Counted from the stretch's first letter, positions 10,464-21,649 are shown. The stretch: DNA of 21,707 nucleotides from a virus (IMGVR_UViG_3300021962_000750:1-21707), one strand, 5' to 3'. Translations and numbers: made by a program. Notes: generated from the sequence alone by a model not told the origin.

Positions 10464-10493
10464 GTTATAATTACTTGGCAGGGGGGGTGTCCA
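10464..10493 (-). promoter_or_regulatory. C-tract promoter for the nuclease operon
   Basis: On the minus strand: TGGACA, C7, T, 18-nt spacer, TATAAC. It lies in the last codons of the transglycosylase gene, where it is translated as DTPPAK. It is the only copy with a changed -35 (TGGACA). Confidence 0.75.
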
Positions 10494-10971
10494 GTATGGA
10501 CTTGGCTCGCTTCATTGCGATGCGGGTATGATGGGTTGGGATTTCGTTGATGTTGAAGTTCACACCTCTAGCACCACGATATCCCATGTTGTAACACATG
10601 TATACAGTCATTGGAGTTACTTTTTGCTTGTTGTCCGTAAGTCTGTCGATAATCATTTCGACATAGCAGGTCGCAAGTAGTCTGGATGTGAATGGGTCAA
10701 GGCAGGACTTCTTGTGGTCCTTGAGCATCTTCTGAAATGTCAGCAATTCGTATACAAGTGGATGCTTTACTCTGCACCAAGCAACTGCGTCAAGGTAGGC
10801 ATCCTTGTGCATTTGGTATGCACCTATTGCGTTTCCGCTGTCACCAATGGCGTTAGGATTGTTGTTGGATTCGATTATTGCAATCTTGTCCATGAAGTCT
10901 TCAATTTCAAAGGAGTACCCAGAGATACAGGAGAGGAGCATAGACGATGCGTATGTTAGTAGTCGGTTCAT
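10471..10971 (-). CDS. Secreted lysozyme-like / lytic transglycosylase
   Basis: I chose the ATG at 10971; the GTG at 11001 lies inside a terminator hairpin. The 166-residue product begins with a signal-like stretch (MNRLLTYASSMLLSCISG) that contains a possible lipobox (LLSC). A goose-lysozyme/SLT-like motif follows: IIESNNNPNAIGD (catalytic Glu likely in IIES) and GNAIGAYQM. The enzyme would cleave the peptidoglycan glycan strand. Later Cys/Tyr-rich segments (YMCYNMGYRGARG) fit the C-terminal lobe. It sits between recombination genes, far from the holin-like gene, and starts directly after the poly-T of the preceding terminator, so its own expression is unclear. It could act as endolysin or in entry. 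Its last codons hold the next promoter. Confidence 0.7.
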   Translation of the reverse strand: MNRLLTYASSMLLSCISGYSFEIEDFMDKIAIIESNNNPNAIGDSGNAIGAYQMHKDAYLDAVAWCRVKHPLVYELLTFQKMLKDHKKSCLDPFTSRLLATCYVEMIIDRLTDNKQKVTPMTVYMCYNMGYRGARGVNFNINEIPTHHTRIAMKRAKSILDTPPAK

Positions 10972-11010
10972 AAAAAAAGGGGGAAGGGAGGGGGATTTCA
11001 CCCCTCCCTT
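10972..11010 (-). terminator. Likely rho-independent terminator after the ERF gene
   Basis: On the minus strand a 10-bp stem (AAGGGAGGGG with CCCCTCCCTT) and a 7-nt loop are followed by CCCCC and T7. The gap between stem and T-run is unusual. It lies 7 nt past the ERF stop and its T-run abuts the transglycosylase ATG. Confidence 0.5.
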
Positions 11011-11017
11011 TGACTAC

Positions 11018-11788
11018 TTAGAACGGAACATCATCGGACGCTTCAGGTTCCTGCTGGGGGTTTTGCGAGTTGTTATACAACGCAACAGCAGTGGCCTTCA
11101 ACTTGGCATCCTTTGCAGTGACTCGACCAGTCTTCTCGTAAGGACGAGGCTCCCACTTGGTGGCCCAGTAAGCAAGGTCATTGCCCTGAAGTTCACCGAT
11201 GGGAGTTCCCTTGTTGTTGCCAAAAGGCACAGGGATGGAGGGGTCGATATCACCAGAGGTCGGCTCAGGTGCGGTCAGGCCAGTGATGTAGTTGGCAACA
11301 GGCTTGGGGGCAACATATTGTTTGGGAGCAACAGCCTTAACCTGTCGGTCAAACTCAGCATCGTCATCTTCTGTAGCGACACCTGCAACGGAAGCCAGTG
11401 CGTAGCGTCTCAAATAAGTCAGCAATGCACCAGCCTGTTGACCAGTGGTATCCGTGTCGATAGGTACGACACATGATTGCTCAATGCTTTCTCCATTCTT
11501 GTGAATGATGATGGTTTGGATTCCGACAGCACCAATCTGTTTGCGTTCTGCACCAGACCAGAAAGCATCACTAGCCGATGTCGGGAACTGAAGTATAGCA
11601 AGTCCATTCTTTGCGAAGATTGGCTTAATATAATTCAAGTGAGCCGATAGGCTGGCGTACTTGGATTTGTGGAACGGATTGTTACTATCGGGGGCTATGT
11701 CCTTCGTCTCAAAAAGAGACTTGGCAATAGCCGAATAGAACTCGGAACGCCTCTGTTGTAGAGCGTTGATTTCATTATCTTGGGTCAT
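11018..11788 (-). CDS. erf: ERF family single-strand annealing protein
   Basis: This 256-residue protein has the ERF-superfamily N-terminal domain: an opening helix (RRSEFYSAIAKSLFETK), the conserved HKSKYASLSAHLNYIKPIF segment, GLAILQFP, and TGQQAGALLTYLRRYALAS near residues 115-133, which is the family's hallmark region. ERF proteins bind single-stranded DNA and anneal complementary strands in phage recombination and genome circularisation. The C-terminal part is a Pro/Ala-rich linker and ends in the acidic DDVPF, typical of single-strand DNA binding tails. It pairs functionally with the Exo VIII-like nuclease downstream. Transcription starts at its own C-tract promoter, 19 nt upstream of the ATG, and ends at a terminator. 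Confidence 0.88.
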   Translation of the reverse strand: MTQDNEINALQQRRSEFYSAIAKSLFETKDIAPDSNNPFHKSKYASLSAHLNYIKPIFAKNGLAILQFPTSASDAFWSGAERKQIGAVGIQTIIIHKNGESIEQSCVVPIDTDTTGQQAGALLTYLRRYALASVAGVATEDDDAEFDRQVKAVAPKQYVAPKPVANYITGLTAPEPTSGDIDPSIPVPFGNNKGTPIGELQGNDLAYWATKWEPRPYEKTGRVTAKDAKLKATAVALYNNSQNPQQEPEASDDVPF

Positions 11789-11807
11789 AGGTATGGGTTC
11801 GGGAAAG

Positions 11808-11837
11808 TTTATAAACAGGTTGCAGGGGGGGTGTCAA
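11808..11837 (-). promoter_or_regulatory. C-tract promoter for the ERF gene
   Basis: Minus strand: TTGACA, C7, T, exact 18-nt spacer, TATAAA. This is the copy closest to the bacterial consensus. It sits directly after the terminator of the replication operon. Confidence 0.8.
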
Positions 11838-11844
11838 CCCGATT

Positions 11845-11878
11845 AAAAAACTAATGCATAGGGAACCACCCCTATGCA
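11845..11878 (-). terminator. Rho-independent terminator of the replication operon
   Basis: On the minus strand a 9-bp perfect stem (TGCATAGGG with CCCTATGCA) and a 6-nt loop are followed by TTAG and T6. It lies 84 nt past the ATPase stop and 8 nt before the ERF promoter. Confidence 0.75.
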
Positions 11879-11961
11879 CTAGAACCTTTCGGTTTTGTAT
11901 GATGAACCAGCCGATGCCGTAGCACCCGCCAGCGTTGATTTAATAACTGAGTTGGTTAGGC

Positions 11962-12645
11962 TCAAGCGGAAATGGCAGAAAAGTAATCACGCAATCTTCT
12001 CACTAGGGCAACCCCTGTCTCCTTGTTCTGGAAACGCTCCAGCAACTTGTCGCCAGTATAGTTGGTCGTAATGATTGTCGTCTTAAGATTGGAGGTTCTC
12101 TCGTCAATAACCGCAAAAAGGTCTGACTCCAGACGCTGTGTGAGACGCTCCTTGCCCAAGTCGTCAAGAACTAGGACTGGGCAGGAGATAAGAATGTCAA
12201 GAACATTGCCATGCTTTCGGTCTTCAAAACCCTTTTCAATGAGCCCCTCAAACTTCCGCATCTGCAAAAAGAACGACCTGTCAGGGTAGTGCTTTCGCCA
12301 TAGCCTGTTGAACAGTCTCCATGCCGCCCTAGACTTGCATGTTCCAGACTCGCCATGCAGGATTAGAGACGACTTCTCCTCCGAAGGATGCCAGTCCTCG
12401 GCCTTAAGCAACAAAGGGCTCCTACGGACATCCGTGGCTATGAAGCCCTGAGGGTACTCAGGATGCAGGTGGGCAAAGGCAATGCCCTTCTTGTCAAAGA
12501 CTTCCTTGTAACTGAATGGGTAGTCCCAGTAGTCCTTGGCTGTAAAGCACTCTTCACACACACGGACAGACATGTCAAAGAACTTCTTGCTTTCGTTCCA
12601 TGCTGGTACGGCTTGGCTCTCGCAATGTACGCACTTGTACTTCAC
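11962..12645 (-). CDS. DnaC/IstB-like AAA+ ATPase, probable helicase loader
   Basis: I chose the GTG at 12645, which overlaps the stop of the preceding gene as GTGA; the frame also opens at TTG 12672. The 227-residue product has an N-terminal four-cysteine zinc-finger-like motif (Cys5, Cys8, Cys30, Cys33), then an AAA+ domain: Walker A HGESGTCKS (Lys104), Walker B VLVLDDLG (about 157-164), a sensor-1 ITTNYT and a C-terminal RRLRDY with arginine-finger character. It resembles DnaC/DnaI/IstB proteins that load the replicative helicase. The Walker A has Cys where Gly normally precedes Lys. No helicase gene is in this window. It is the last gene of the replication operon. Confidence 0.8.
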   Translation of the reverse strand: MKYKCVHCESQAVPAWNESKKFFDMSVRVCEECFTAKDYWDYPFSYKEVFDKKGIAFAHLHPEYPQGFIATDVRRSPLLLKAEDWHPSEEKSSLILHGESGTCKSRAAWRLFNRLWRKHYPDRSFFLQMRKFEGLIEKGFEDRKHGNVLDILISCPVLVLDDLGKERLTQRLESDLFAVIDERTSNLKTTIITTNYTGDKLLERFQNKETGVALVRRLRDYFSAISA

Positions 12646-13085
12646 GACTGCACTCCCTTGGCTTTTTGCCAATAAATCATGGCCTCACGCACTATTGTTG
12701 GTTCATAAGGGCAACCATTGAAGTCGGCTTGCAAAGTCACTTCCATCGCATCCCCCGCCTTGGTCAGCCGCTCGACCTCGGCCTTGAGGCGGGCGTGAGA
12801 ATCAACGATGTACTTTATACGCTCAGGAAGAGTCTTGTCAGCAAATATGTCTCCATTGTCAAATTCAAGCGTCTCCGAATTAGCCATTCTGATATATTCA
12901 GAAATGTTATATCCTAGAGGTATTGCTAATTTCTTCAGTTGCTCAACCTCGGCCTTTTCGTCAATCCATAGTTGGTAGTGTCGGTCTGACTCTTCACGAA
13001 TAAGAAGGTTCTCTGATTTGAGATTTTCAATCTCTTCACGGAGTTCTTGTCTAGTCCAGAACATCATATTAGAATCCTTTGGCAT
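12642..13085 (-). CDS. Coiled-coil hypothetical protein in the replication operon
   Basis: The product (147 residues from ATG 13085; ATGs at 13067 and 13064, just past the upstream stop, are equally possible) is mostly helical. Residues about 10-50 (EIENLKSENLLIREESDRHY) and about 95-110 (ARLKAEVERLTK) have heptad character. No catalytic motif or known family is recognised. It lies between the HTH replication protein (17-nt overlap if the long start is used) and the ATPase (GTGA junction), so it is probably co-translated with both and may act in the same complex. Confidence 0.7.
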   Translation of the reverse strand: MPKDSNMMFWTRQELREEIENLKSENLLIREESDRHYQLWIDEKAEVEQLKKLAIPLGYNISEYIRMANSETLEFDNGDIFADKTLPERIKYIVDSHARLKAEVERLTKAGDAMEVTLQADFNGCPYEPTIVREAMIYWQKAKGVQS

Positions 13086-13722
13086 GGTCGTTTTTGGTTA
13101 AGGTTGGTCCAGATTCGGTTCGGGCTGGCTCAAATAAGCCGACCCATCCGTTCTTTATGGAAAGTTCAATGGAGATAATAGCCTTGGTTTCGCCCCACTT
13201 CTTAAGGTCAGCAAACTGCTTCTCTATCGTAGATGGAGTCAACTTCTTCTTTAGTTCCTTTCGGTAGTCTATCCACGCTCCCCATGCCTTGTGAAACTCT
13301 TCAGATTCAAAAGGAAAAACAGGAGCATTAACAAGACCCTTTATCTTTTTAGTATCCTCTTTATTATCTTCTTTATTATATGGGTGCAACGGATTGCATG
13401 GGGTAGGTGCAATAGATTGCATGGGGGGTGTGCAATGCACTGCATCCCTAAGTGCAACAGAATGCACTGTATGCAATACCCTGCGTCCAACAGGAGTATA
13501 CTCACGCACAACGAGTTTACGCTCAATCAGTTTGGCGAGGATGTTCTGCATTTGTCGCTTCTCTACATTGAGGCAGTTCTGTAGGTAGGCGTTAGATGCC
13601 CAGCATCCATCCTCACCATCCAGTGCATCAATAAGGGAGAAGCATACCTTCTCGGTCAGTGTAAGAGTACTAGACTCAAACACCTCCTTGGGCATCCATA
13701 GCCCAGTAAATTTAAGGTTCAT
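13069..13722 (-). CDS. Phage replication initiator/organiser-like HTH protein
   Basis: I chose the ATG at 13722, because the alternative GTG at 13731 lies inside the predicted -10 (TAGAGT). The 217-residue product has an N-terminal winged-helix domain (LTEKVCFSLIDALDGEDGC, SNAYLQNCLNVEKRQMQNIL, a wing around VVREYTPVGRR), a Pro-rich linker with repeated (M/N)xL/IxP segments and a C-terminal helical region (FHKAWGAWIDYRKELKKKL). This layout fits phage replication proteins of the O/DnaD/replisome-organiser type that bind the origin and recruit the helicase loader; the loader-like ATPase is two genes downstream. The linker DNA (13380-13500) holds several near-repeats of a GCAATxxATTGCA-like word, a possible origin iteron region. 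Confidence 0.65.
   Translation of the reverse strand: MNLKFTGLWMPKEVFESSTLTLTEKVCFSLIDALDGEDGCWASNAYLQNCLNVEKRQMQNILAKLIERKLVVREYTPVGRRVLHTVHSVALRDAVHCTPPMQSIAPTPCNPLHPYNKEDNKEDTKKIKGLVNAPVFPFESEEFHKAWGAWIDYRKELKKKLTPSTIEKQFADLKKWGETKAIISIELSIKNGWVGLFEPARTESGPTLTKNDHAKGF
13380..13480 (-). repeat. Cluster of short near-repeats inside the replication gene, possible origin iterons
   Basis: Within the linker of the replication protein the words GTGCAAC/GTGCAAT and GATTGCATGG / AATGCACTG recur about every 15-25 nt (for example GGGTGCAACGGATTGCATGG at 13381, then GTGCAATAGATTGCATGG at about 13407). Lambda-like phages place origin iterons inside the initiator gene. The repeats may also simply reflect coding of Cys/Thr/Pro/His-rich linker peptides. 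Confidence 0.35.
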
Positions 13723-13729
13723 CGCTTCC

Positions 13730-13759
13730 ACTCTAACACCAGTCCAAGGGGGGTGTCAA
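13730..13759 (-). promoter_or_regulatory. C-tract promoter for the replication operon
   Basis: Minus strand: TTGACA, C6, T, 18-nt spacer, TAGAGT. The ATG lies 7 nt after the -10, predicting a leaderless or nearly leaderless mRNA. The TGA inside TTGACA is the stop of the preceding gene. Confidence 0.75.
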
Positions 13760-14217
13760 GCGGATGGTTCTTGTGGCTCAATCTCAATGATTGTTTCGCC
13801 TTTCAGCATCTTATTGATGTCGTCCTGCGATATCTTCTGGATGCGATGCTCTATCACGGCAGTAGGCTGGTCTTGAAGCACCGCAATCTTGTCAATGATA
13901 ATACCAAGAGCAGTAGGAAGGAAGTTCGGATGTATGTTTTCAATTTCATTATTAAGTCTATTAGCCCCCTTCATACCAGCATTCTTCATTATGTTAGCCA
14001 TGTTGGTCTTCCAGTCTTTGTCAGATAGACCAGACATGTCTGCCTTTATAGCGGATATGCTATGCTCGGACAGTCCTGTTTCCTTGACTATCTCGTCTCT
14101 GGTTATACCCTGCTTGAGCATCTCTTCACACTTCTGCCTACGCTCAGGCTCAATGTTCTTTGCGTTGCTGTAATGCTGGTTGTTACGAATTATCTCTTTC
14201 TTTGGCTCATATTCCAT
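13756..14217 (-). CDS. HTH DNA-binding protein, terminase-small-subunit-like or regulator
   Basis: I chose the ATG at 14217; a GTG at 14238 would start inside the divergent promoter. The 153-residue product has an N-terminal helix-turn-helix (MLKQGITRDEIVKETGLSEH, then SISAIKADM), a helical middle and a conserved-looking segment around PTALGIIIDKIAVLQDQPTAVIEHR. That last pattern occurs in phage small proteins that are annotated as HTH regulators or terminase small subunits. No large terminase subunit is visible here to decide. It ends in EPQEPSA, with its stop TGA inside the next promoter's TTGACA. It is divergent from the RusA unit. Confidence 0.6.
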   Translation of the reverse strand: MEYEPKKEIIRNNQHYSNAKNIEPERRQKCEEMLKQGITRDEIVKETGLSEHSISAIKADMSGLSDKDWKTNMANIMKNAGMKGANRLNNEIENIHPNFLPTALGIIIDKIAVLQDQPTAVIEHRIQKISQDDINKMLKGETIIEIEPQEPSA

Positions 14218-14231
14218 GAAAAGGATTGTGC

Positions 14232-14261
14232 TTGACACCCCCCCTGAGTCAACCCTAAAGT
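14232..14261 (+). promoter_or_regulatory. C-tract promoter for the RusA-tRNA unit
   Basis: TTGACA, C7, T, 18-nt spacer, TAAAGT; the ATG of the first gene is 7 nt downstream. This copy overlaps a weaker mirror-image TTGACT on the minus strand. Confidence 0.7.
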
Positions 14262-14268
14262 GACTTTG

Positions 14269-14376
14269 ATGAAAAATACCATTGCTACTTTGATACTAGG
14301 CGTTGCCGTCTGTGTTGTGTATACCACTGTTGCTACTGTTCTTGGAGGCGTAACAGGCGAGCGTCATGATTCCTAA
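14269..14376 (+). CDS. Single-span small membrane peptide (35 aa)
   Basis: The 35-residue product (MKNTIATLILGVAVCVVYTT, then VATVLGGVTGERHDS) is one long hydrophobic stretch between a short basic start and a polar tail. It starts 7 nt after a predicted -10 and overlaps the RusA gene by 11 nt, so it is well placed to be translated first from the unit. Role unknown; small phage membrane peptides can act in superinfection exclusion or lysis timing. Confidence 0.6.
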   Translation: MKNTIATLILGVAVCVVYTTVATVLGGVTGERHDS

Positions 14377-14875
14377 AATTGTCAATATCAGAGTTCCTAT
14401 TGAAGCCCCGCCTACGCACCAAGCCGCATTGCGTGTTCTAAAGAACAAGAGCGGTAAAATGTTCATAGGCAAGATGGCTAACAGCAATGCCGTCAAGTGG
14501 AAGCAGTCGTTTCTGCTTATGTTGCTTAAGTGGACTCCTAAGGAACCACTGTCTGGCCCCCTGCGTGTAAGCGTTAACTTTGGGTATCCATTGTTAAAGA
14601 AACATCATGAACAAATCAAGAAGCGTAAGGGCAATGGCGTAATGGTCGTGGAAGCAAAAGTCACACGCCCAGATTGCGATAACTTAGTTAAATCTGTGCT
14701 TGACGCATTGACCGAGGCTAAATATATTGTCGATGATTCAAATGTAGTTTCACTCAGCGTAAGCAAGTGGTTCCACTGGAAGGCTCCCTTCATTGATGTC
14801 ATCATCACGGAGGAAAAGAGCGACCCTTGGAAGGAACTTGACAACCCCTCCGCTCCATCCGTAGAACCCAAATAA
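14366..14875 (+). CDS. rusA: RusA-like Holliday junction resolvase
   Basis: The 169-residue protein has the RusA pattern: an N-terminal strand region with PPTHQAALRV, a basic loop (LKKHHEQIKKRKGN), the acidic motif TRPDCDNLVKSVLDAL (Asp103, Asp105, Lys109) and VDDSNVVSLSV (Asp123/Asp124) that form the metal site. RusA dimers cut Holliday junctions symmetrically and resolve recombination intermediates, which fits the ERF and Exo VIII-like genes nearby. Length is above the classic 120 residues because of a C-terminal Pro/Ser/Glu extension. It overlaps the small membrane peptide, and its stop overlaps the next start as TAATG. Confidence 0.88.
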   Translation: MIPKIVNIRVPIEAPPTHQAALRVLKNKSGKMFIGKMANSNAVKWKQSFLLMLLKWTPKEPLSGPLRVSVNFGYPLLKKHHEQIKKRKGNGVMVVEAKVTRPDCDNLVKSVLDALTEAKYIVDDSNVVSLSVSKWFHWKAPFIDVIITEEKSDPWKELDNPSAPSVEPK

Positions 14876-15330
14876 TGACCAACAAGATTACTGACCGAGC
14901 ATGCTACATCATGGAAACGGAATTCTGGTGCAATTACGAACTTGAAGGCGAAAACCTCACCGAGCGTACAATGAAAGGCAGAGTAAAGAAATTGCTTCAG
15001 ACACATATGGACAGGTGCTATAACAACGAAAATAGTGTTCCGTTTATAATGGTCACTGAAATTAGCAATAAAGAACCCATATGCGAAGACAAGGATGGCG
15101 TAACTAAATTGCGTACATCTTGTACAATGACCATGTGTATTGAAGATGCCGACAACAACCCTCAGCAATTGGCTAAAAACATGACCATGCTGTTCTTCGA
15201 CTCAATCAAGTTCCCATCATTTAGAATCAACAAAGCATATCCAACGCCAGACAGTATCTCCATCAAGGACGACTCATGCATGCGTGGCTATGTACAACTT
15301 GACAATACAGTTTTTATTCCAATCACATGA
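14875..15330 (+). CDS. Hypothetical protein (151 aa)
   Basis: The ATG overlaps the RusA stop (TAATG) and its own stop overlaps the next start (ATGA). It has several cysteines (for example CYIMETEFWCN, RTSCTMTMCIED, DDSCMRGY), a helical N-terminus and alternating beta-type strands. I recognise no family or catalytic motif. Its place directly after RusA suggests a nucleic-acid related role, which is inference only. Confidence 0.7.
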   Translation: MTNKITDRACYIMETEFWCNYELEGENLTERTMKGRVKKLLQTHMDRCYNNENSVPFIMVTEISNKEPICEDKDGVTKLRTSCTMTMCIEDADNNPQQLAKNMTMLFFDSIKFPSFRINKAYPTPDSISIKDDSCMRGYVQLDNTVFIPIT

Positions 15331-15539
15331 ACCAAAGAGAAATCAATCGTGTTGAGAAGTATCTCATCACATATCCGCAAATCAGGAATAATCCTGCCGC
15401 TATCGAGGAGTTGAAGAACCTGTGTCTCGACCCCAAGATTGGGCATCCTGCTGATGCAAACAAGCAACGCCAGTTCCGCAACGCTCGCAAGAATCGTGAT
15501 GCGGCTGTGCTTACGCTTGCCAGTTCACTGACTGCATAA
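15327..15539 (+). CDS. Small basic hypothetical protein (70 aa)
   Basis: ATGA overlap with the previous gene. It is a helical, basic protein: REINRVEKYLITYPQIRNN at the start and KQRQFRNARKNRD near the end. The pattern of a short helix pair with a basic tail resembles small phage proteins of transcriptional or DnaA-like binding type, but no family is recognised. It ends 7 nt before the first tRNA. Confidence 0.6.
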   Translation: MNQREINRVEKYLITYPQIRNNPAAIEELKNLCLDPKIGHPADANKQRQFRNARKNRDAAVLTLASSLTA

Positions 15540-15546: not shown

Positions 15547-15618
15547 ATCCCATTAGTTCAGCGGATAGAACAGTGGTTTTCTAAACCATTAACCTTGGTT
15601 CGATTCCAAGATGGGATA
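15547..15618 (+). tRNA. tRNA-Arg (anticodon TCT)
   Basis: Full cloverleaf: acceptor ATCCCAT with ATGGGAT, D-arm GTTC/GAAC, anticodon loop TTTCTAA, T-arm CTTGG/CCAAG with loop TTCGATT, discriminator A. CCA is not encoded. It reads AGA, a codon used heavily in this phage. Confidence 0.9.
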
Positions 15619-15622
15619 CTTT

Positions 15623-15694
15623 GCCCTGTTAGCACAGTGGTAGTGCGTCTGTTTTGTAAACAGAAGGTCGTTGGTTCAACCCCAACACAGGGCT
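15623..15694 (+). tRNA. tRNA-Thr (anticodon TGT)
   Basis: Full cloverleaf: acceptor GCCCTGT with ACAGGGC, D-arm GCAC/GTGC, anticodon arm TCTGT/ACAGA with loop TTTGTAA, T-arm GTTGG/CCAAC with loop TTCAACC, discriminator T. CCA not encoded. Four bases after the Arg tRNA. Confidence 0.92.
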
Positions 15695-15702
15695 TACTTT
15701 CT

Positions 15703-15830
15703 GGAGGTATAGTTTAACGAAAACCTTTGTATAGGTGGTTCCAGCGGTACTGGTATGAAATGCGGGGTTCAACTCCCTGCCAACGCACCAAAAGTACAAA
15801 AAATGTGGGTATAAAATCCCATTACCTCCT
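15703..15830 (+). tRNA. Composite tRNA-like gene with a 58-nt insertion in the anticodon loop
   Basis: Outer parts form a cloverleaf of canonical helix lengths: acceptor GGAGGTA (15703) with TACCTCC (15823), TA linker, D-stem GTTT/AAAC, one base, anticodon stem TTTGT (15726) with ACAAA (15796), 4-nt variable loop and T-stem GTGGG/CCCAT. The anticodon loop is 65 nt instead of 7. The insert itself folds: GGTGGTT with AACGCACC (one bulged G), hairpin CCAG/CTGG, and a classic T-arm GCGGGG/CCCTGC with loop TTCAACT, ending near CACCA. It thus looks like a tRNA without an anticodon arm, nested in a tRNA. The outer D-loop is short and the outer T-loop (TATAAAAT) lacks TTC, so the product may not be a normal tRNA. 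Acceptor ends resemble tRNA-Tyr/Ser, but the amino acid cannot be assigned. Confidence 0.5.
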
Positions 15831-15837
15831 CCCTTTC

Positions 15838-15910
15838 ACGGCAGTAACTCAATTGGCAGAGTGTCAGTTTTCCAAACTGGATGTTGCGGGTTCGACCCCC
15901 GCTTGCCGTA
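15838..15910 (+). tRNA. tRNA-Gly (anticodon TCC)
   Basis: Acceptor ACGGCAG with TTGCCGT, D-arm ACTC/GAGT, anticodon arm TCAGT/ACTGG with loop TTTCCAA, T-arm GCGGG/CCCGC with loop TTCGACC, discriminator A. CCA not encoded. It reads GGA. Confidence 0.9.
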
Positions 15911-15915
15911 TTTTC

Positions 15916-15991
15916 TGGCGTGTAACTCAGCGGTTAGAGTGGGCTCTTTATAAGGGCTAAGCCGTGGGTTCAAATCCCACCACGCCAACCA
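15916..15991 (+). tRNA. tRNA-Ile (anticodon TAT), CCA encoded
   Basis: Acceptor TGGCGTG with CACGCCA, D-arm ACTC/GAGT, anticodon arm GGCTC/GGGCT with loop TTTATAA, T-arm GTGGG/CCCAC with loop TTCAAAT, discriminator A followed by CCA. It reads AUA with a UAU anticodon, unlike the bacterial norm of CAT with lysidine. A promoter TTGACA begins one base after the CCA. Confidence 0.88.
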
Positions 15992-15992
15992 T

Positions 15993-16022
15993 TTGACACC
16001 CCCTCCCCACAACAAATAAAAA
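15993..16022 (+). promoter_or_regulatory. C-tract promoter after the tRNA cluster
   Basis: TTGACA, C5, T, 18-nt spacer, TAAAAA. The ATG follows after 6 nt. It abuts the 3' end of tRNA-Ile. Confidence 0.75.
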
Positions 16023-16028: not shown

Positions 16029-16265
16029 ATGCCGAACAACAATCAAGACGAAGCAATCAAACTCATTCACCAGTTGGCTAATAAGGCTGGACTGTGCGTA
16101 TTCATCCTGTGTGATGAAGACCTTGCAATCAAGGAAGCAGACCACGCAACAAAGTTCACTGATGACGAAAAGGAAGACATCTACATTGAATTCCACGAAG
16201 GACTTTCTGAAGTGTACGATGAAATCCTTGACCATATCTGCAACAACATTATCGACAACCGATGA
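16029..16265 (+). CDS. Small acidic hypothetical protein (78 aa)
   Basis: ATG lies 6 nt after the predicted -10, so the mRNA should be leaderless. The protein is strongly acidic, with a helical N-terminus (NQDEAIKLIHQLANKAG), a hydrophobic strand (LCVFILC) and acidic helices (EDIYIEFHEGLSEVYDEIL). No family recognised. It opens a three-gene unit and overlaps the next gene as ATGA. Confidence 0.7.
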   Translation: MPNNNQDEAIKLIHQLANKAGLCVFILCDEDLAIKEADHATKFTDDEKEDIYIEFHEGLSEVYDEILDHICNNIIDNR

Positions 16266-16594
16266 GAAAACGAAATGGCTGGGGAACCTATGAGTTCCAA
16301 GAACTAAAGATTAACTATGGTGGTGCTACATACGCAGTCAGCGGAACATGCGACTGGGAAGTAGAAGACCATGGCATCGGCAGATACGAATACTGGGGCG
16401 ACATTGGACATGACCATCAATATATGGCTTGTTTCCATAGTGCCGACATTGATGATATCGTGCTTGAAGAAAGCACTGAATACGGAAATCAAAACCTTAC
16501 GGAAATAGATAAGGTTAACATTGCTGAATTAGTAGTGGATGCACTCAACGAAGACAGCGAACTATGTTCTGAACTTGCAGAAAATTATAAATAA
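16262..16594 (+). CDS. Hypothetical protein (110 aa)
   Basis: ATGA overlap with the previous gene. The first half is beta-rich and aromatic (WGTYEFQELKINYGGATYAV, CDWEVEDHGIGRYEYWG), and the second half is an acidic helix region (ADIDDIVLEESTEYG, NIAELVVDALNED). It looks like a compact globular phage protein; no family recognised. Confidence 0.7.
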   Translation: MRKRNGWGTYEFQELKINYGGATYAVSGTCDWEVEDHGIGRYEYWGDIGHDHQYMACFHSADIDDIVLEESTEYGNQNLTEIDKVNIAELVVDALNEDSELCSELAENYK

Positions 16595-16595
16595 T

Positions 16596-16811
16596 ATGGC
16601 ACATAACCCTATGATTGAAATAGTGCTTGAAAAAGCACTCAACGCATTGTCCGCTTGCGACAATGTTCTTGCACAAGAACTAATCACTCTTGAGTACAAA
16701 GAAGAACGATTTAAGAACGCTGACCAAATCAAGGAACGAGTTAAGCAAATCTCCGACCTCAAGCGTGAGGTGGAGTCTGTCTTGCGACAGGGCAACAGCC
16801 TCGACCTGTGA
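16596..16811 (+). CDS. Small helical hypothetical protein (71 aa)
   Basis: I chose the ATG at 16596, 1 nt after the preceding stop, rather than an earlier alternative start inside the previous gene. The protein is helical (MIEIVLEKALNALSACDNVL, then KNADQIKERVKQISDLKREV) with coiled-coil character. No family recognised. It closes the unit; its stop lies one base before the next TTGACA. Confidence 0.65.
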   Translation: MAHNPMIEIVLEKALNALSACDNVLAQELITLEYKEERFKNADQIKERVKQISDLKREVESVLRQGNSLDL

Positions 16812-16812
16812 T

Positions 16813-16842
16813 TTGACACCCCCCTCCCTCAAACATTAAAAC
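16813..16842 (+). promoter_or_regulatory. C-tract promoter
   Basis: TTGACA, C6, T, 18-nt spacer, TAAAAC; ATG after 12 nt. Confidence 0.8.
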
Positions 16843-16854
16843 CAAATTCCTCCT

Positions 16855-17334
16855 ATGAAAACCACGACCAAAGCCGACCCCGATAACATCATCATCTCCA
16901 ACCGAAAGCATCACCTGACTTTCTATAAGGAGCCTATCACCCCTGAATACGCCAACTGCCTGTGGTCTATCGTGACCACTTCTATTGAAGGCGGGCTTGG
17001 CGGTTCCTCTTGGGGCTGGCGTTGCCGAGACGCTGAACAAGTCAAGGCGTACAATTGTGCGAGTAATGACAAGACCAGCAATACCTACCTCAATCTCACT
17101 ATGGACTTTGCTATGTGGGAAGAGGATAATGACATCACTGACTATCATCGTGTGACCGCAGAATGGTTGCATAACAAGATGGTTAAGTTCGTCAATGATG
17201 ACAAGCAACCCATCCACCTGCGTACTCACTTCGCTGAATTCCTGTTGAGCCGTGATTACCCCAGCAGTGGCGATGCCGTCACCGATGACGCTCTGTTCCA
17301 GTATGCCTTCCTTGGCGAAATCCGCTTCGGCTAA
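16855..17334 (+). CDS. Hypothetical protein (159 aa)
   Basis: Single-gene unit between two C-tract promoters. The protein has Trp/Gly-rich segments (CLWSIVTTSIEGGLGGSSWG, WRCRD), a central strand region (YLNLTMDFAMWEED) and helical ends (VTAEWLHNKMVKFV, HLRTHFAEFLLSRD). It appears globular and soluble. No family or catalytic motif is recognised. No Shine-Dalgarno sequence precedes the ATG. Confidence 0.7.
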   Translation: MKTTTKADPDNIIISNRKHHLTFYKEPITPEYANCLWSIVTTSIEGGLGGSSWGWRCRDAEQVKAYNCASNDKTSNTYLNLTMDFAMWEEDNDITDYHRVTAEWLHNKMVKFVNDDKQPIHLRTHFAEFLLSRDYPSSGDAVTDDALFQYAFLGEIRFG

Positions 17335-17337
17335 CAC

Positions 17338-17367
17338 TTGACACCCCCCTCCCTCAACAAATAAAAC
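17338..17367 (+). promoter_or_regulatory. C-tract promoter
   Basis: TTGACA, C6, T, 18-nt spacer, TAAAAC; ATG after 8 nt. Confidence 0.8.
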
Positions 17368-17375
17368 AAAATCCT

Positions 17376-17762
17376 ATGACCAACCCGCTCCTATACATTC
17401 GTAATAAGTTCTGCCTCTGGATTACTGGGCTGACGCACAGTGAAATCGAAGAGATTGTCGAAGGCTACAATTCAATCCCCACTGACTACATCAGTACCAG
17501 TGACTTCAACCCAGATGATTATGACTTTGAGCCGCTCAAGGATTATGACTTCAGCGAGTTCATTACCTCTGATGGTTTCTCTGACCATCTTGTTGATAAC
17601 GAAGTCGTTCAGCAATCTGACTTGGATGACAAGTTGTGCGAATACACGACCACTGACGAGTTGAAGGTTATCATTGATGGACTCAAAGCCCGCCTTGAGG
17701 CTCTTGAACCCAAGAAGAAAAAGATTAATCTTGAGAAGAAGCCGAAGCAAGACGGCAAGTAA
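17376..17762 (+). CDS. Acidic hypothetical protein with basic tail (128 aa)
   Basis: Residues about 30-90 are strikingly acidic (for example DFNPDDYDFEPLKDYDF) with repeated (D/Y)DF-type words. The end is a coiled helix (ELKVIIDGLKARLEAL) followed by a Lys-rich tail (PKKKKINLEKKPKQDGK). An acidic surface of this kind is seen in DNA-mimic phage proteins, but no homology supports that here. Short leader predicted; the unit ends at a strong terminator. Confidence 0.7.
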   Translation: MTNPLLYIRNKFCLWITGLTHSEIEEIVEGYNSIPTDYISTSDFNPDDYDFEPLKDYDFSEFITSDGFSDHLVDNEVVQQSDLDDKLCEYTTTDELKVIIDGLKARLEALEPKKKKINLEKKPKQDGK

Positions 17763-17765
17763 ATT

Positions 17766-17787
17766 CACAGTGAGTTGTGTCACTGTG
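17766..17787 (+). other. Perfect 8-bp hairpin upstream of the terminator
   Basis: CACAGTGA, loop GTTGTG, TCACTGTG. A second small hairpin (AATCC/GGATT near 17804-17817) follows before the terminator. Together they make a folded 3' UTR or small RNA of about 90 nt. Confidence 0.5.
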
Positions 17788-17819
17788 TTGTGCGTGGTGC
17801 ATAAATCCTAACGGATTAT

Positions 17820-17854
17820 GGGCTGGGGGTTATGGTTGACCTCCAGCCCTTTTT
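17820..17854 (+). terminator. Strong rho-independent terminator
   Basis: An 11-bp stem (GGGCTGGGGGT with ACCTCCAGCCC, one G-T pair), 8-nt loop, then T5. It is the clearest terminator in the accessory region; the next promoter starts 10 nt later. Confidence 0.85.
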
Positions 17855-17863
17855 GCACCGCTG

Positions 17864-17893
17864 TTGACACCCCCTCCCATCAATCCTTAAAAC
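17864..17893 (+). promoter_or_regulatory. C-tract promoter
   Basis: TTGACA, C5, T, 18-nt spacer, TAAAAC; ATG after 9 nt. Confidence 0.8.
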
Positions 17894-17902
17894 CAAATTC
17901 CG

Positions 17903-18154
17903 ATGACCAAACAAAACAACGAAGAAATGCAATTTCAAGCATTTAACAAAATGCTTGAAATCGCTAAAGAGGCTTCCCTTGAAATCCTTGTCGTAACTGA
18001 CAACGATATTGAACTCGCACTGGATGGAAATGATGACGCTCTTGCTCAACTTACTCCCGATGTCTTGAAAAAGATTAAAAGAGACTTCATTGATGACCTC
18101 CACGATAATTTTCAATACACCATTCAAGACGCTATTGCTAAACATATCAAATGA
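17903..18154 (+). CDS. Small helical hypothetical protein (83 aa)
   Basis: First gene of a three-gene unit with a very short predicted leader. Predominantly helical and acidic: EEMQFQAFNKMLEIAKEASL, then ILVVTDNDIELAL, VLKKIKRDFIDDLHDNFQY. No family recognised. Overlaps the next gene as ATGA. Confidence 0.7.
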   Translation: MTKQNNEEMQFQAFNKMLEIAKEASLEILVVTDNDIELALDGNDDALAQLTPDVLKKIKRDFIDDLHDNFQYTIQDAIAKHIK

Positions 18155-18438
18155 CCAAAACGACCAACAGTAATGCACGACACTTCGTGCAACAACGGCA
18201 AGAGTTCACTGGTAGCAATACCTTTGGGCGATGGAATAACGGCAATTATGTAGTCTATTCTTATGGACTTCACTTCCCTATGTTTGTGTGGTGTGCGTTT
18301 GACTCCAAGTGGTATCAAAACTCTGACAAATACAGCGTTACTACTTCAAAACATAAATTTCAACTGCATCCGCTTGGCGAATGCGAAAGCCTCAACACCA
18401 TACAACTAAAACAACTAATCAACAAAACCTATGCCTAA
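18151..18438 (+). CDS. Conserved phage protein with YVVYSYG/HFPMFVW motif (95 aa)
   Basis: The core NNGNYVVYSYGLHFPMFVW, then KWYQNSDKYSVTTSKHKFQ and HPLGE, is a pattern I recall from a small phage domain of unknown function (DUF8033-like) in large phage genomes. It is a beta-rich, aromatic domain of about 60 residues. No function is established. ATGA overlap upstream, 8-nt overlap with the next gene. Confidence 0.7.
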   Translation: MTKTTNSNARHFVQQRQEFTGSNTFGRWNNGNYVVYSYGLHFPMFVWCAFDSKWYQNSDKYSVTTSKHKFQLHPLGECESLNTIQLKQLINKTYA

Positions 18439-18673
18439 ATATCGTATCGCTGAAACCCTGCGTGTAGAATACATTGTAGACTCTCAATCTCCAAGCAAGG
18501 CGGTAGATGAATATATGAAGGAGTTCCTGTTGCTGTTCAATACTGACCGACAAATTGAAGCAAGCGAAGGCACTGACTTCACCATTCACAAGGTGAATGA
18601 AGATGGAACTCTTGGCTACGAACAAGACCCTTGCGACAACACCATTGACACCCCCCCTGCTCAAACCGCATAA
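18431..18673 (+). CDS. Small hypothetical protein ending in a promoter-encoded tail (80 aa)
   Basis: It begins with a strand region (KYRIAETLRVEYIVDSQSPS) followed by a helix (KAVDEYMKEFLLLF) and a strand pair with EDGTLGYEQD; this resembles small alpha/beta phage proteins. The end DTPPAQTA is encoded by the next promoter's TTGACA-C-tract and is probably not functionally selected as protein. No family recognised. Confidence 0.7.
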   Translation: MPKYRIAETLRVEYIVDSQSPSKAVDEYMKEFLLLFNTDRQIEASEGTDFTIHKVNEDGTLGYEQDPCDNTIDTPPAQTA

Positions 18674-18674
18674 C
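18645..18674 (+). promoter_or_regulatory. C-tract promoter inside a gene end
   Basis: TTGACA, C7, T, 18-nt spacer, CATAAC; ATG after 7 nt. It overlaps the last ten codons of the previous gene. Confidence 0.7.
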
Positions 18675-18681
18675 CAAACCG

Positions 18682-18981
18682 ATGACCAAAACCCAAGAAC
18701 TAATCGACAAACTGAACATCCCTGCTGGTACTACATACCCAATCGTTGACTTCAATGTCGATGGTAATGTATTCGCTATTATCAGTGCTGTATCAAAGGC
18801 GTGGCGACCAATCAATCGTGATGTATCCAACAACATTATGAATGTTGTCAACGAGCATTGCGGTTCGTATGAGGAAGCGTTATGCTTTCTAATGGCTATC
18901 AGTAATGTATCATATGATACGGATAATGATGACCTTGGTGGACTTGAAGAAGACTTCCCCGATACGGAAGACGAAGAATAA
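18682..18981 (+). CDS. Acidic hypothetical protein (99 aa)
   Basis: ATG is 7 nt after the -10. An alpha/beta start (ELIDKLNIPAGTTYPIVDFN, VFAIISAVSKAW) is followed by a helix with Cys residues and a very acidic tail (DTDNDDLGGLEEDFPDTEDE). No family recognised. A 192-nt structured non-coding stretch follows. Confidence 0.7.
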   Translation: MTKTQELIDKLNIPAGTTYPIVDFNVDGNVFAIISAVSKAWRPINRDVSNNIMNVVNEHCGSYEEALCFLMAISNVSYDTDNDDLGGLEEDFPDTEDEE

Positions 18982-18987
18982 CAACTC

Positions 18988-19090
18988 TGGAGACTGTCCC
19001 ATTGGCATAAGAAAACTAATGGTGTTATAAAGAAAGGATATGCAGTATCAATGACAGGCAAAGCCAGTCGATATGGGCATATCTCCTCCA
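18988..19090 (+). ncRNA. Candidate structured RNA or structured leader
   Basis: Nested pairing: TGGAG (18988) with CTCCA (19086); CCATT/AATGG hairpin (18999-19022); GATATGC (19037) with GCATATC (19077) enclosing GACaGGC-AAA-GCCaGTC (19053-19069). A TTGGCA (19002), 18-nt spacer, TATAAA (19026) could start transcription at the base of the second stem. More hairpins follow (GCTG/CAGC near 19107-19125, CAAGG/CCTTG 19131-19154). It may be a small RNA or the leader of the gene at 19174. Confidence 0.4.
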
Positions 19091-19173
19091 AATAACTTTA
19101 TGGGTTGCTGTGAAGGCGTTCCAGCGTAATCAAGGCTAAAACTATACGACCTTGTTCCCACCTCTTTACCACA

Positions 19174-19389
19174 ATGCACAACCTAAACAAAAACGATGTT
19201 TATATTTGGGATATCATTCCCATTGGAAATGAGTCTTTCTATAGACTTACCTTCAGATACAACGGCAAGTTGCATTGCAGTCTTTTCAAGACTGACTCCG
19301 ATGTGAGGGAGTTTATCGACAGATACTACCTCGATTGGATGGCGAACCGAGCCGAGTTTGACACCCCCCCTGCCGAAGCCGTAGATTGA
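19174..19389 (+). CDS. Small hypothetical protein with promoter-encoded tail (71 aa)
   Basis: The only accessory gene here that follows a long structured leader instead of a C-tract promoter. It has beta-type alternation (DVYIWDIIPIGNESFYRLTF, GKLHCSLFKT) and a helix (SDVREFIDRYYLDWMANRA). It ends in DTPPAEAVD, encoded by the next promoter. No family recognised. Confidence 0.65.
   Translation: MHNLNKNDVYIWDIIPIGNESFYRLTFRYNGKLHCSLFKTDSDVREFIDRYYLDWMANRAEFDTPPAEAVD
19358..19387 (+). promoter_or_regulatory. C-tract promoter inside a gene end
   Basis: TTGACA, C7, T, 18-nt spacer, TAGATT; ATG after 6 nt, so leaderless. The stop codon of the previous gene lies just after the -10's start. Confidence 0.7.
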
Positions 19390-19393
19390 TTTT

Positions 19394-19738
19394 ATGCCAC
19401 TCAACCCTACTACGAACCGAGAAATTCACGACTTCATCTGTATGAAGTATCGCTACACTGACGCTGAAGACGAAGGTGCAGAGTATCGTGTAGCCGCAGG
19501 TTATTACTCCCAACTATTCGACATCTACGAAAACTGGGATGACTCTGACGAAGAACTGTTTCGTATGCTTGCTAATCGCAGATGGGAAATAGAAGCCTAT
19601 GCTGAAGAGCGTGGCTGGACTTTAGACCGAGACTATCCATACCCAGAGAAAAGCACTGAAAACCGCTTCAATCTGGTGTCTGCTCCGAAGTCGGCATACA
19701 CTGTTAGCCAATGGCGACAGTCGTTCCCAGCGACTTGA
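19394..19738 (+). CDS. Hypothetical protein (114 aa)
   Basis: Acidic, aromatic protein: DFICMKYRYTDAEDEGAEYR, YYSQLFDIYENWDDSDEELF, then NRRWEIEAYAEERGW. Mostly helical by pattern. No family recognised. Its TGA stop is the TGA of the next promoter's TTGACA. Confidence 0.7.
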   Translation: MPLNPTTNREIHDFICMKYRYTDAEDEGAEYRVAAGYYSQLFDIYENWDDSDEELFRMLANRRWEIEAYAEERGWTLDRDYPYPEKSTENRFNLVSAPKSAYTVSQWRQSFPAT

Positions 19739-19764
19739 CACCCCCCTCCCTCAATCGGTAAAAC
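19735..19764 (+). promoter_or_regulatory. C-tract promoter
   Basis: TTGACA, C6, T, 18-nt spacer, TAAAAC; ATG after 35 nt, the longest leader in the set. Confidence 0.8.
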
Positions 19765-19799
19765 GAATTTCCTCAACCAACCCACAAACACACAAAATT

Positions 19800-20315
19800 A
19801 TGTCACTCGATTGGAAAATGCCCAAGGAATTCTACGAAACCAAGAAGCATCTGATGTATACCAAGGAAGATGCTAATGGTAACAGCAAGATGCAGGTAGA
19901 ACTTGAATGCCTCATCTTTACTATGCTTCATCTCCAGCACGATATTGATGGCGAGATGACCGATGAAGCACTTATGGAGATTGAGCGTAGGCTTAATCTA
20001 TTGCAAGGTATTGGCTGTCTTATGGCTTGGTATTATGGTCGTGAAGACCTGCGTGACAAGACCTATGTAAACATTGAGACTGTCATCCGCTATTGGGGCC
20101 TTTGGACTAATGTATCTCATCTCAAGAAGACTGAATGGAACAAGCGTTTCCTTCGGATGAGCGAACCTCGTCCTTATGACTTCAAGTATGTATTGCAAGA
20201 AGCCAAGAACAAGATTGCGTCCTGCGATATGACTCAACCTGAACGGCAATGGGCTGAATACGAAAAGCAACAGACCGCCAAATCGACCGCTGTTGACACC
20301 CCCCCTGCCGAATAA
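19800..20315 (+). CDS. Helical hypothetical protein with promoter-encoded tail (171 aa)
   Basis: The largest accessory gene here. Helical throughout, with LECLIFTMLHLQHDIDGEM, ALMEIERRLNLLQGIGCLM and aromatic segments (AWYYGRED, YWGLWTNVSH). The end AVDTPPAE is encoded by the next promoter. No family or catalytic motif recognised. The 35-nt leader has no Shine-Dalgarno sequence. Confidence 0.7.
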   Translation: MSLDWKMPKEFYETKKHLMYTKEDANGNSKMQVELECLIFTMLHLQHDIDGEMTDEALMEIERRLNLLQGIGCLMAWYYGREDLRDKTYVNIETVIRYWGLWTNVSHLKKTEWNKRFLRMSEPRPYDFKYVLQEAKNKIASCDMTQPERQWAEYEKQQTAKSTAVDTPPAE

Positions 20316-20322
20316 CTAAAAC
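20293..20322 (+). promoter_or_regulatory. C-tract promoter inside a gene end
   Basis: TTGACA, C7, T, 18-nt spacer, TAAAAC; ATG after 16 nt. Confidence 0.8.
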
Positions 20323-20338
20323 GGCATCACTCCACCAA

Positions 20339-20611
20339 ATGAGCAAACTCAACAACCGAGGCGATAAACAATTCGATGAAGGCGACTTCATTGAGTCTAC
20401 CCAAGACAAGGCATTCAAGAGCGTTACCAATGCATTAGATGCAATCGAAAAGATTGAATGCGGTGTATATGAAACGCACGAAGAATATGCATCCTTGTAT
20501 CAAATCTTGATTGATGAAGGCATCGTCTGGCATCTCCAAGGAAGCCACCAGCGTAACGCCTCCCGACTGATAGCCGAAGGCTATTGCCACCAAGAGTCGG
20601 CATCGTCTTGA
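20339..20611 (+). CDS. Small hypothetical protein (90 aa)
   Basis: Helical (DKAFKSVTNALDAIEKIECG, HEEYASLYQILIDEGIVWHL) with a short C-terminal segment (RLIAEGYCHQE). The layout, a helix pair plus a 'W-x-L-x-G-S/H' turn, is common in small phage proteins of unknown role. The stop TGA is part of the next TTGACA. Confidence 0.7.
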   Translation: MSKLNNRGDKQFDEGDFIESTQDKAFKSVTNALDAIEKIECGVYETHEEYASLYQILIDEGIVWHLQGSHQRNASRLIAEGYCHQESASS

Positions 20612-20637
20612 CACCCCCCCTACCTCAACCTTAAAAC
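20608..20637 (+). promoter_or_regulatory. C-tract promoter
   Basis: TTGACA, C7, T, 18-nt spacer, TAAAAC; ATG after 24 nt. Confidence 0.8.
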
Positions 20638-20661
20638 GAAATCTCTCACCCAATACCAAAA

Positions 20662-20976
20662 ATGAGCAACACCCCCACCGAAACCACGAACTACACCAAG
20701 ATTACTACTTATCTGTCGTATGACGGCAAGATTAGTAGTGTCCACATCGGTCACTACAAGACCGCAAACCGACTCATTGACTCCCTCAATGAGGGCGACC
20801 TGCAAATGACGAGCATCCACTTCTCGTTCTTTAAGACTGAAGTCAAGTCCTATGGGATTTACAGTCAGTCCGTCCAACTCAATACTATCTTCGGGGATGC
20901 CCGCCTTGAGTTGAATAACAGTCATAAGCACTTCTGTCCAGAGTCTGTGGTGGGCTCTGAACAGATTGGTGGTTAA
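20662..20976 (+). CDS. Hypothetical protein (104 aa)
   Basis: Beta-rich start (YTKITTYLSYDGKISSVHIG), a helix (TANRLIDSLNEGDLQM) and further strands (SIHFSFFKTEVKSYGIYS, VQLNTIFGD). It is not as acidic as its neighbours. No family recognised. A 212-nt structured gap follows. Confidence 0.7.
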   Translation: MSNTPTETTNYTKITTYLSYDGKISSVHIGHYKTANRLIDSLNEGDLQMTSIHFSFFKTEVKSYGIYSQSVQLNTIFGDARLELNNSHKHFCPESVVGSEQIGG

Positions 20977-20993
20977 TAAGTGATACATAAGGG

Positions 20994-21118
20994 ATACTAC
21001 GCAGTATAGTTACGACTGTATTGCAGTTATAAAGAGACATCGCTCCGACAGCACCAGCATCCTACGATGAATAGGATTAAGGGAGTTATAGACCCGCTGA
21101 CACAGATAGAGAGCGATG
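20994..21118 (+). ncRNA. Candidate structured RNA with long-range 8-bp stem
   Basis: Three consecutive folds: ATACT/AGTAT (20994-21007), ACTG/CAGT (21015-21027) and CATCGCTC (21038) with GAGCGATG (21111). The last encloses CAGC/GCTG (21049/21096), a perfect ATCCTA/TAGGAT hairpin (21059-21077) and GGG/CCC (21081-21095). The 10-mer GTTATAAAGA precedes the long stem as it does in the 18988-19090 element. No good coding frame is seen. Confidence 0.45.
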
Positions 21119-21144
21119 CCGTCCCACCCCCTTTCGGCTCGACC

Positions 21145-21174
21145 TTGACACCCCCCCTTCACTTGGGGTAAAAC
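21145..21174 (+). promoter_or_regulatory. C-tract promoter
   Basis: TTGACA, C7, T, 18-nt spacer, TAAAAC; ATG after 14 nt. Confidence 0.8.
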
Positions 21175-21188
21175 CCTCTCACCAACCG

Positions 21189-21428
21189 ATGAAACCACTA
21201 ATCGTCTACGCCATCACTGAAAAGCCTGTGGGCTTCAATGCCCCCCTGCTCATTGATAGTAAATCCGCTGTCTTCCCTACTTGGGAGGATGCAGAAATTG
21301 AGCGTCTACGCAAATACCCAAATGAGGATTATTGCGTGACAAAGTGCAATTACCTGCATCAGTATCCAAGCGGTGAATACTCCGCTATGCTTTTGCCCGA
21401 AAACCACCTCCGCTTCTGTATTAACTAA
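21189..21428 (+). CDS. Small hypothetical protein (79 aa)
   Basis: Compact alpha/beta pattern: LIVYAITEKPVGFN, a conserved-looking FPTWEDAEIERLRKYPNED, then YCVTKCNY and a short end. The 'VFPTWEDAEIER' type helix is typical of phage proteins that look like small translated domains of host-interaction type; no family recognised. The next gene starts directly after its stop (TAAATG). Confidence 0.7.
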   Translation: MKPLIVYAITEKPVGFNAPLLIDSKSAVFPTWEDAEIERLRKYPNEDYCVTKCNYLHQYPSGEYSAMLLPENHLRFCIN

Positions 21429-21623
21429 ATGACCACAATCAAAATCACTCAAATAGAATGGGATACAGATGGCGAGTCCGTAGACCTTCCCAAGTCTGTG
21501 ACCATCACTGTAGAGGATTGGGCTACTGGAACAGACGAAGCCCAAATAGAAGATTGGGTATCGGATTATCTATCCGATGAGTATGGATACTGTCATCACG
21601 GCTTCGACTTTGAGGTCTGTTGA
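21429..21623 (+). CDS. Small acidic hypothetical protein (64 aa)
   Basis: Acidic strand-rich start (TIKITQIEWDTDGESVDLPK, VTITVEDW), then an acidic helix (EAQIEDWVSDYLSDEYGY) and GFDFEVC. The pattern resembles small phage domains with a WVSDYLSDxxGxxxxGF end, which I recall as frequent but uncharacterised. Its TGA stop is inside the next TTGACA. Confidence 0.7.
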   Translation: MTTIKITQIEWDTDGESVDLPKSVTITVEDWATGTDEAQIEDWVSDYLSDEYGYCHHGFDFEVC

Positions 21624-21649
21624 CACCCCCTCCCCCTAACCATTAAAAC
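21620..21649 (+). promoter_or_regulatory. C-tract promoter at the window edge
   Basis: TTGACA, C5, T, 18-nt spacer, TAAAAC; ATG after 17 nt. The array continues beyond the window. Confidence 0.8.

Follow-up and report, generated by a model that had tools for sequence, protein, structure and literature searches.

Results

The window analysed here is the complete IMG/VR record IMGVR_UViG_3300021962_000750, 21,707 bases of DNA with a GC content of 46% that represent one fragment of a larger phage genome. Its right half carries many copies of a putative promoter element in which a -35 hexamer, TTGACA, is directly followed by a run of cytosines, here called the C-tract. The record belongs to an uncultured, aquatic, podovirus-like phage of bacteria, and no isolated phage matches the record at the nucleotide level. 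The left part codes for a piece of a giant late protein and has lysis-like genes. It is followed by recombination and replication genes (a DUF3799 PDDEXK nuclease, Erf, an IstB-like ATPase, an O-like initiator and RusA) and then by an array of small genes of unknown function with four tRNAs. Pattern and protein scans showed the element in five further records: 3300009183_000184 (labels L019/L020, G6), 3300046011_004995 (L014/L015, G1), 3300044951_001833 (L007), 3300020044_006911 (L016) and 3300027785_000054 (L017/L018, G5). A shifted variant occurs in a more distant relative, 3300042549_003496 (L041, L111, L112), whose TerL is 83% identical, and a single isolated site in IMGVR_UViG_2937236879_000003 was set aside.

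The element consists of TTGACA, five to seven C, a T, a variable stretch and a -10 box after exactly 18 nucleotides (nt). Fifteen copies lie between 10464 and 21649, twelve on the plus strand and three on the minus strand with -35 starts at 10493, 11837 and 13759, just as the initial annotation had listed them. The -35 reads TTGACA in 14 of the 15 (TGGACA at 10493), and every copy has a run of 5-7 C with a T behind it. A -10-like hexamer stands at 18 nt in every copy, beginning with TA in all except CATAAC at 18645, so the constant distance first claimed is indeed there whatever the length of the C-tract. Exactly eight copies have TAAAAC, where eight or more had been announced, and most -10 boxes read TAAAAC or TATAAC, with C instead of T as the last base. 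The sequence TTGACACCCCC is present 14 times (0.01 expected from dinucleotide shuffles) and TTGACACCCCC-N13-TANA 13 times (0 expected). A TANA box is found at 18 nt in 14/15 copies of the record and 54/63 copies over five related phages, versus 0-3 copies at each other distance from 8 to 35. The arrangement has the geometry of sigma70-type promoters, a TTGACA-like -35 and a TATAAT-like -10 spaced 16-19 nt apart. The early region of four phages holds no TTGACH-N16-19-TAWAAY that lacks the C-tract.

Copies precede nearly every early transcription unit, and all copies in the record are oriented into the following gene. The late part of the record (27-7911) has none. Since the analysed DNA is a single 21.7-kb record, the description 'phage-wide' could be judged only with the relatives. 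In the 39-kb relatives the element is restricted to the early non-structural region and missing from the late operon, apart from a copy at L019:600 that has no gene close downstream and supplies one arm of the intrinsic terminator ending the early array. The element is a promoter class of one phage lineage, as proposed, but of its early non-structural region only.

How well is the C-tract conserved? The element stands ahead of orthologous genes in 3300009183_000184, 3300046011_004995, 3300020044_006911 and 3300027785_000054, and thereby passes a check set by the initial annotation, for which its absence there would have been a refutation. For a quantitative comparison of the record with G1 we paired 14 slots by gene orthology, because pairing by motif would be circular. 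Identity across these slots is 96% for the C-tract, 89% for the -35, 83% for the -10 and 45% for the other spacer positions. At the nuclease and Erf gene promoters of G1 and L016 the C6 run is kept while the -35 has become TTGCGT and TTGCAT, and the C-tract is also retained beside the -35 variants TTTTCT, TTGGCT and TAGACT. In 3300042549_003496 the same genes are preceded by TTGACY or weaker, ACYAC5-7, 7-8 nt and TAAAAC. Here the C-tract lies 4 nt nearer the -10 in about ten copies alike, and the -35/-10 spacing is still 18 nt. The C-tract is thus no less conserved than the hexamers, and its offset has changed in concert genome-wide. Because it is kept where the -35 has decayed and has moved by 4 nt as a set in a relative, it probably functions in its own right, as an operator or co-activator site added to promoters of the host sigma70 type; the suggestion that the C-run is additional to the sigma-70 consensus is supported. 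Spacer positions 7-12 are 70-82% uniform within a lineage versus 45% between orthologs, and -10 identity is 83% between orthologs versus 71% between non-orthologs, with TAGAGT, for example, staying at the initiator gene slot. Conversion of the whole element is not supported, since -10 variants remain slot-specific.

The individual copies head recombination, replication-initiation and accessory units alike, as had been noted. On the minus strand, TGGACA-CCCCCCCTGCCAAGTAAT-TATAAC at 10464-10493 precedes the DUF3799 PDDEXK nuclease gene (9632-10459) and overlaps the 3' end of 10471-10971; its orthologs read TTGACA-C7 in L020 (G6) and TTGCGT-C6 in L015 (G1). The copy at 11808-11837 precedes the Erf gene (11018-11788). 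That at 13730-13759 precedes the O-like replication initiation gene (13069-13722), and its TGA is the stop of 13756-14217, which encodes a helix-turn-helix (HTH) protein. Divergently from this HTH gene, the plus-strand copy at 14232-14261 leads into a 36-amino-acid open reading frame (ORF) directly behind it (14269-14376, MKNTIATLILGVAVCVVYTTVATVLGGVTGERHDS), and RusA (14366-14875); relatives have a similar ORF start (MKNT...). An inverted TTGAC...GTCAA (TTGACACCCCCCCTGAGTCAA) lies within this element at 14232-14252, just upstream of the opposite-strand HTH gene, and recurs in L015 and L020. A degenerate sixteenth copy, missed by the initial annotation, is TTGACA-ACCCCTCCGCTCCATCCG-TAGAAC at 14838-14867 on the plus strand (TTGACA-ACCCCTCC...-TAGAAC), 7 nt ahead of the ATG of 14875-15330; it is intact in L020.

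All further copies are on the plus strand. The one at 15993-16022 begins 2 nt past tRNA-Ile and precedes 16029-16265, with 6 nt between -10 and ATG. The tRNA quartet itself (Arg-TCT, Thr-TGT, Gly-TCC and Ile-TAT, 15547-15991) splits the small-gene array in two parts, and the Ile anticodon TAT is unusual among bacteria. Then follow copies at 16813-16842 (ahead of 16855-17334), 17338-17367 (ahead of 17376-17762) and 17864-17893 (ahead of 17903-18154 and 18151-18438). The CATAAC copy at 18645-18674 overlaps the end of 18431-18673 and precedes 18682-18981, and a copy with TAGATT at 19358-19387 lies within the end of 19174-19389 and precedes 19394-19738. Those at 19735-19764 (ahead of 19800-20315) and 20608-20637 (ahead of 20662-20976) contribute their TGA as the upstream stop; between them, 20293-20322 overlaps the end of 19800-20315 and precedes 20339-20611. 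The last two copies, 21145-21174 and 21620-21649, precede 21189-21428 and an ORF running past the record end, respectively. Altogether, four copies end the upstream gene with the TGA of their TTGACA and four more overlap an upstream gene end past the C-tract; as these eight hold or overlap gene ends, the early units are packed without terminators. Two other explanations of the C-run were rejected. A coding constraint (a 'DTPPA' peptide) is contradicted by just four intact copies in the upstream frame past the C-tract and by the four that use the TGA stop. Phase variation by slippage does not fit a run of 5-7 here, and up to 9 in relatives, at a spacing that stays 18 nt.

In 29 of 64 copies the ATG lies 6-9 nt behind the -10, which is compatible with a start about 7 nt after the -10. 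Because the usual start, 6-8 nt past the -10, falls at or next to the ATG, about half of the promoters should yield leaderless or near-leaderless mRNAs. The leaders of the other units are mostly C/A-rich and without Shine-Dalgarno (SD) sites. SD-like motifs have a frequency of 0.10 in the phages versus 0.10 in a control stretch, and of 0.10 versus 0.09 in 240 kb of an Opitutae metagenome-assembled genome (MAG); neither the phages nor the candidate Opitutae hosts use SD sites. In the terminase alignment more than 400 viral contigs are joined, among cellular genomes, by just two Opitutae MAGs. Verrucomicrobia have been reported to be SD-scarce (PMC10783764). From the terminase relatives in the two MAGs, the equal lack of SD motifs and this report, we infer that SD-poor Verrucomicrobiota/Opitutae are the likeliest hosts. 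Across 93 genomes of this candidate host class TTGACACCCCC occurs 122 times versus 40 for the reversed control, or about 1.3 per genome, and the longer pattern TTGACACCCCCCTCC-N9-TANAAC has no match in the one-per-species GTDB collection, so that the pattern scan named no host. Given these two results the C-tract is not a general host promoter feature, though it may have a weak intrinsic role.

Gene order in the early array varies among relatives, and many differences coincide with promoter copies. When G5 is compared with G1, 6 of 14 copies fuse left and right genes from different G1 sites and 3 further copies of the 14 have a matching neighbour on just one side. At the clearest junction, G5:481, the sequence matches the left parent along the entire promoter as far as GATT, after which it matches the right parent. 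Such joints inside promoters suggest that genes move, are lost or are gained as promoter-plus-gene units. Genes also change at boundaries without the element: 12642-13085 was not found in G1, and 17903-18154 stands between a promoter and 18151. Because of these changes, and because most boundaries carry the element, we do not claim that junctions are enriched at it.

Which protein could read the C-tract? Searches of the phage proteins against Pfam and PHROGs gave no RNA polymerase or sigma factor, although remote homologs could escape them, and no MotA/AsiA-like match; host polymerase is therefore the default reader. A candidate regulator is an 87-amino-acid winged-helix protein (7844-8107, minus strand), the core of which is modelled with confidence. 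It has clear homologs in the checked C-tract phages whose record spans the locus, the shifted variant included, and weak or no matches in relatives without the element. A second candidate is the 153-amino-acid HTH protein beside the central divergent promoter (13756-14217, minus strand), which may instead be small-terminase-like. It is also well conserved in phages without the element, its fold search gave no significant match, and its model is poor, with a predicted TM score (pTM) of 0.33. The record yielded no identifiable integrase or repressor.

Several observations concern the late side of these genomes. The giant late-operon protein (27-6836 in the record; L024:900-13853; L025) reaches about 4,300 amino acids in relatives; it has no Pfam or PDB match and just two weak PHROG matches of unknown function. 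An N4-like virion RNA polymerase within it was considered and rejected, as Pfam, PHROG, PDB and RNA polymerase signature motifs gave no support. Upstream of the late operon, at a small-terminase-like gene and usually within about 250 nt, two G-tracts surround TTATTA (GGGGGTTATTAGGGGG, GGGGATTATTAAGGGG), often followed by TTGACA or TGTCAAG. The relatives checked have this pair whether or not they carry the C-tract promoter (L019:760, L017:5161, L014:11607 on the minus strand, L117:590, L113:193, L039:3123, L038:406, L041:4374, L045:2010, L119:1796, L052:7010, L061:1232 and L070:6770), and the G-tract 15-mer occurs in many other viral contigs; possibly it is a packaging or late-control site. At its end the early array has a strong hairpin of C-tract and G-tract with T's behind it (L019:590-665, L017:5000-5060, L117:440-500), and one arm of this terminator is a promoter-like TTGACACCCCCCC copy in both L019 and L117.

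Discussion

We consider it somewhat better than an even bet that the repeated element is an early promoter of sigma70-type geometry with a selected C-tract that serves as a shared site for one regulator. The promoter, of the host type (TTGACA, 18 nt, TANAAC), would serve one or a few small genes, and host RNA polymerase would most likely start 6-8 nt past the -10. The C5-7 tract just downstream of the -35 would be a separate selected cis element, most likely bound by a single regulator, either a repressor or an activator that substitutes for weak -35 contacts. Such a putative regulator would control the whole early set jointly, so the small early genes may all depend on one factor that reads or silences them together, and the copies would act as, or at least tolerate being, joints for gene shuffling. 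The initial annotation had named a phage activator, a repressor or an altered RNA polymerase as the recogniser; that something recognises the C-tract is still the best reading, but an altered polymerase has no support, as the proteins searched include no member of an RNA polymerase or sigma family. The observation of the element itself is borne out, more strongly than first put. Beyond it come the lineage-specific C-tract shift, the near-leaderless geometry and the coincidence of copies with joints of changing gene order, none of which the initial annotation had mentioned.

Several points weigh against this proposal. E. coli sigma70 promoters do not typically have the C found here at -7 (TANAAC). 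The case for either DNA-binding candidate is weak, occurrence being its one tie to the C-tract. A shift of 4 nt between lineages exceeds a third of a helical turn; an activator of fixed geometry would hardly accommodate it, though a repressor or co-evolution could. In addition, the host assignment depends on TerL relatives of 32-35% in two MAGs and on the SD-poor trait, and the 240-kb Opitutae MAG sample yields no promoter consensus for comparison. A more specific version, possible but on balance doubtful, is that a phage C-tract-binding protein such as that of 7844-8107 runs a regulon of single-gene leaderless cassettes. Its co-evolution with the site would then appear as the 4-nt shift, and the copies would be recombination joints that reshuffle accessory genes with regulation kept.

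Could host polymerase alone explain the element, with the C-tract intrinsic to promoters of the host group through DNA shape or direct spacer contact and no regulator at all? This would account for a C-tract that persists as the -35 weakens and for the lack of an obvious regulator, and it draws on the roughly threefold excess of TTGACACCCCC over the reversed control in the 93 host-class genomes, a control that is biased, TTGACA itself being a promoter hexamer. However, about 1.3 copies per host-class genome compare with 14 in 21.7 kb, TTGACACCCCCCTCC-N9-TANAAC is unmatched in genome contigs and C-tract promoters are missing from the late operon of these phages, so that we regard this explanation as unlikely. 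It is improbable that a phage-encoded specificity factor, or one modifying the polymerase, reads TTGACA together with the C-tract, in the manner of MotA/AsiA at T4 middle promoters. Contiguity of -35 and C-tract in the main clade, the final C of the -10 and the lineage-specificity of the element would all suit such a factor, but the searched proteins contain no sigma, RNA polymerase or MotA/AsiA-like match, and the offset of the C-tract to the -35 shifts by 4 nt in a relative.

The mixed sites of G5 (6 of 14 copies, 3 more with one matching side), the switch of parent identity inside a promoter and the homogenised spacer positions 7-12 would be expected if the repeats were kept mainly as recombination joints, with Erf annealing shuffling single-gene cassettes and conversion keeping the 5' half uniform. 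Yet the -10 and spacer positions 13-18 are slot-specific, which means that whole-element conversion is not the rule, genes change at element-free boundaries too, and the fixed promoter geometry requires another cause; we give this account slim prospects. Finally, the C-tract might act in the RNA of read-through transcripts, for instance in Rho loading or in a translation-related role, and a C-rich, G-poor stretch at each gene end, scant room for terminators and upstream stop codons in or near the element would be in keeping with this. The tract is short for a rut site, though, and its strict tie to the -35/-10 geometry fits a promoter better, which makes an RNA role barely credible.

If the C-tract is an operator, these phages offer a natural promoter-operator library (several species have about 15-24 copies in each genome) that would reveal which bases matter. 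It would likewise provide an entry point to gene regulation in phages of SD-poor Verrucomicrobiota, and a clear case of promoter-plus-gene units changing slots, in which a newcomer gene is at once under phage control. Our literature search found nothing relevant on C-tract phage promoters or Opitutae podoviruses, and no transcription study of phages of SD-poor Verrucomicrobiota.

Among known systems, T4 middle promoters define a temporal class in which a MotA box near -30 replaces the -35 and is combined with the host -10. The C-tract element resembles them in placing a phage-specific box beside a host -10, but it keeps TTGACA alongside that box, and the searches gave no homolog of MotA or AsiA. 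Promoters read by a phage sigma factor or RNA polymerase, of the N4, T7 or phiEco32 type, were rejected as a class, since Pfam and PHROG searches of the phage proteins, and PDB and signature searches of the giant protein, found no such protein, although remote homologs could have escaped them. Stoperators are 13-bp repressor sites that halt transcription and lie mostly outside promoters. Like the stoperators named for L5 and cluster A phages (PMC3203893), the C-tract copies are many, directional and phage-specific and could serve one repressor; in contrast to stoperators, nearly every C-tract copy has promoter geometry, in a record without identified integrase or repressor. The early promoters of 7-11 and phiEco32 (PMC4331800) are also of host type and serve early non-structural genes, but they are few, drive long operons and follow the general host consensus, whereas here almost every unit has its near-identical C-tract copy.

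The closest parallel is with SAS and ESAS, phage-specific repeats of unknown function in cluster K mycobacteriophages (PMC3203893). Both there and here, the repeat stands ahead of many non-structural genes in one orientation, is kept at orthologous genes, contains upstream stop codons and is absent from the host, and variation of the ESAS consensus by subcluster (PMC3203893) is a further likeness. Unlike the C-tract element, SAS (GGGATAGGAGCCC) occupies the ribosome-binding position with an SD core, and ESAS are 17-bp inverted repeats (PMC3203893). Membership in SAS/ESAS was rejected: the copies read TTGACA-C5-7-...-TANAAC, show no SD excess, and have neither the sequence nor the position of SAS. 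We group the C-tract element with SAS/ESAS and other regulatory elements repeated phage-wide, as a new variant among them.

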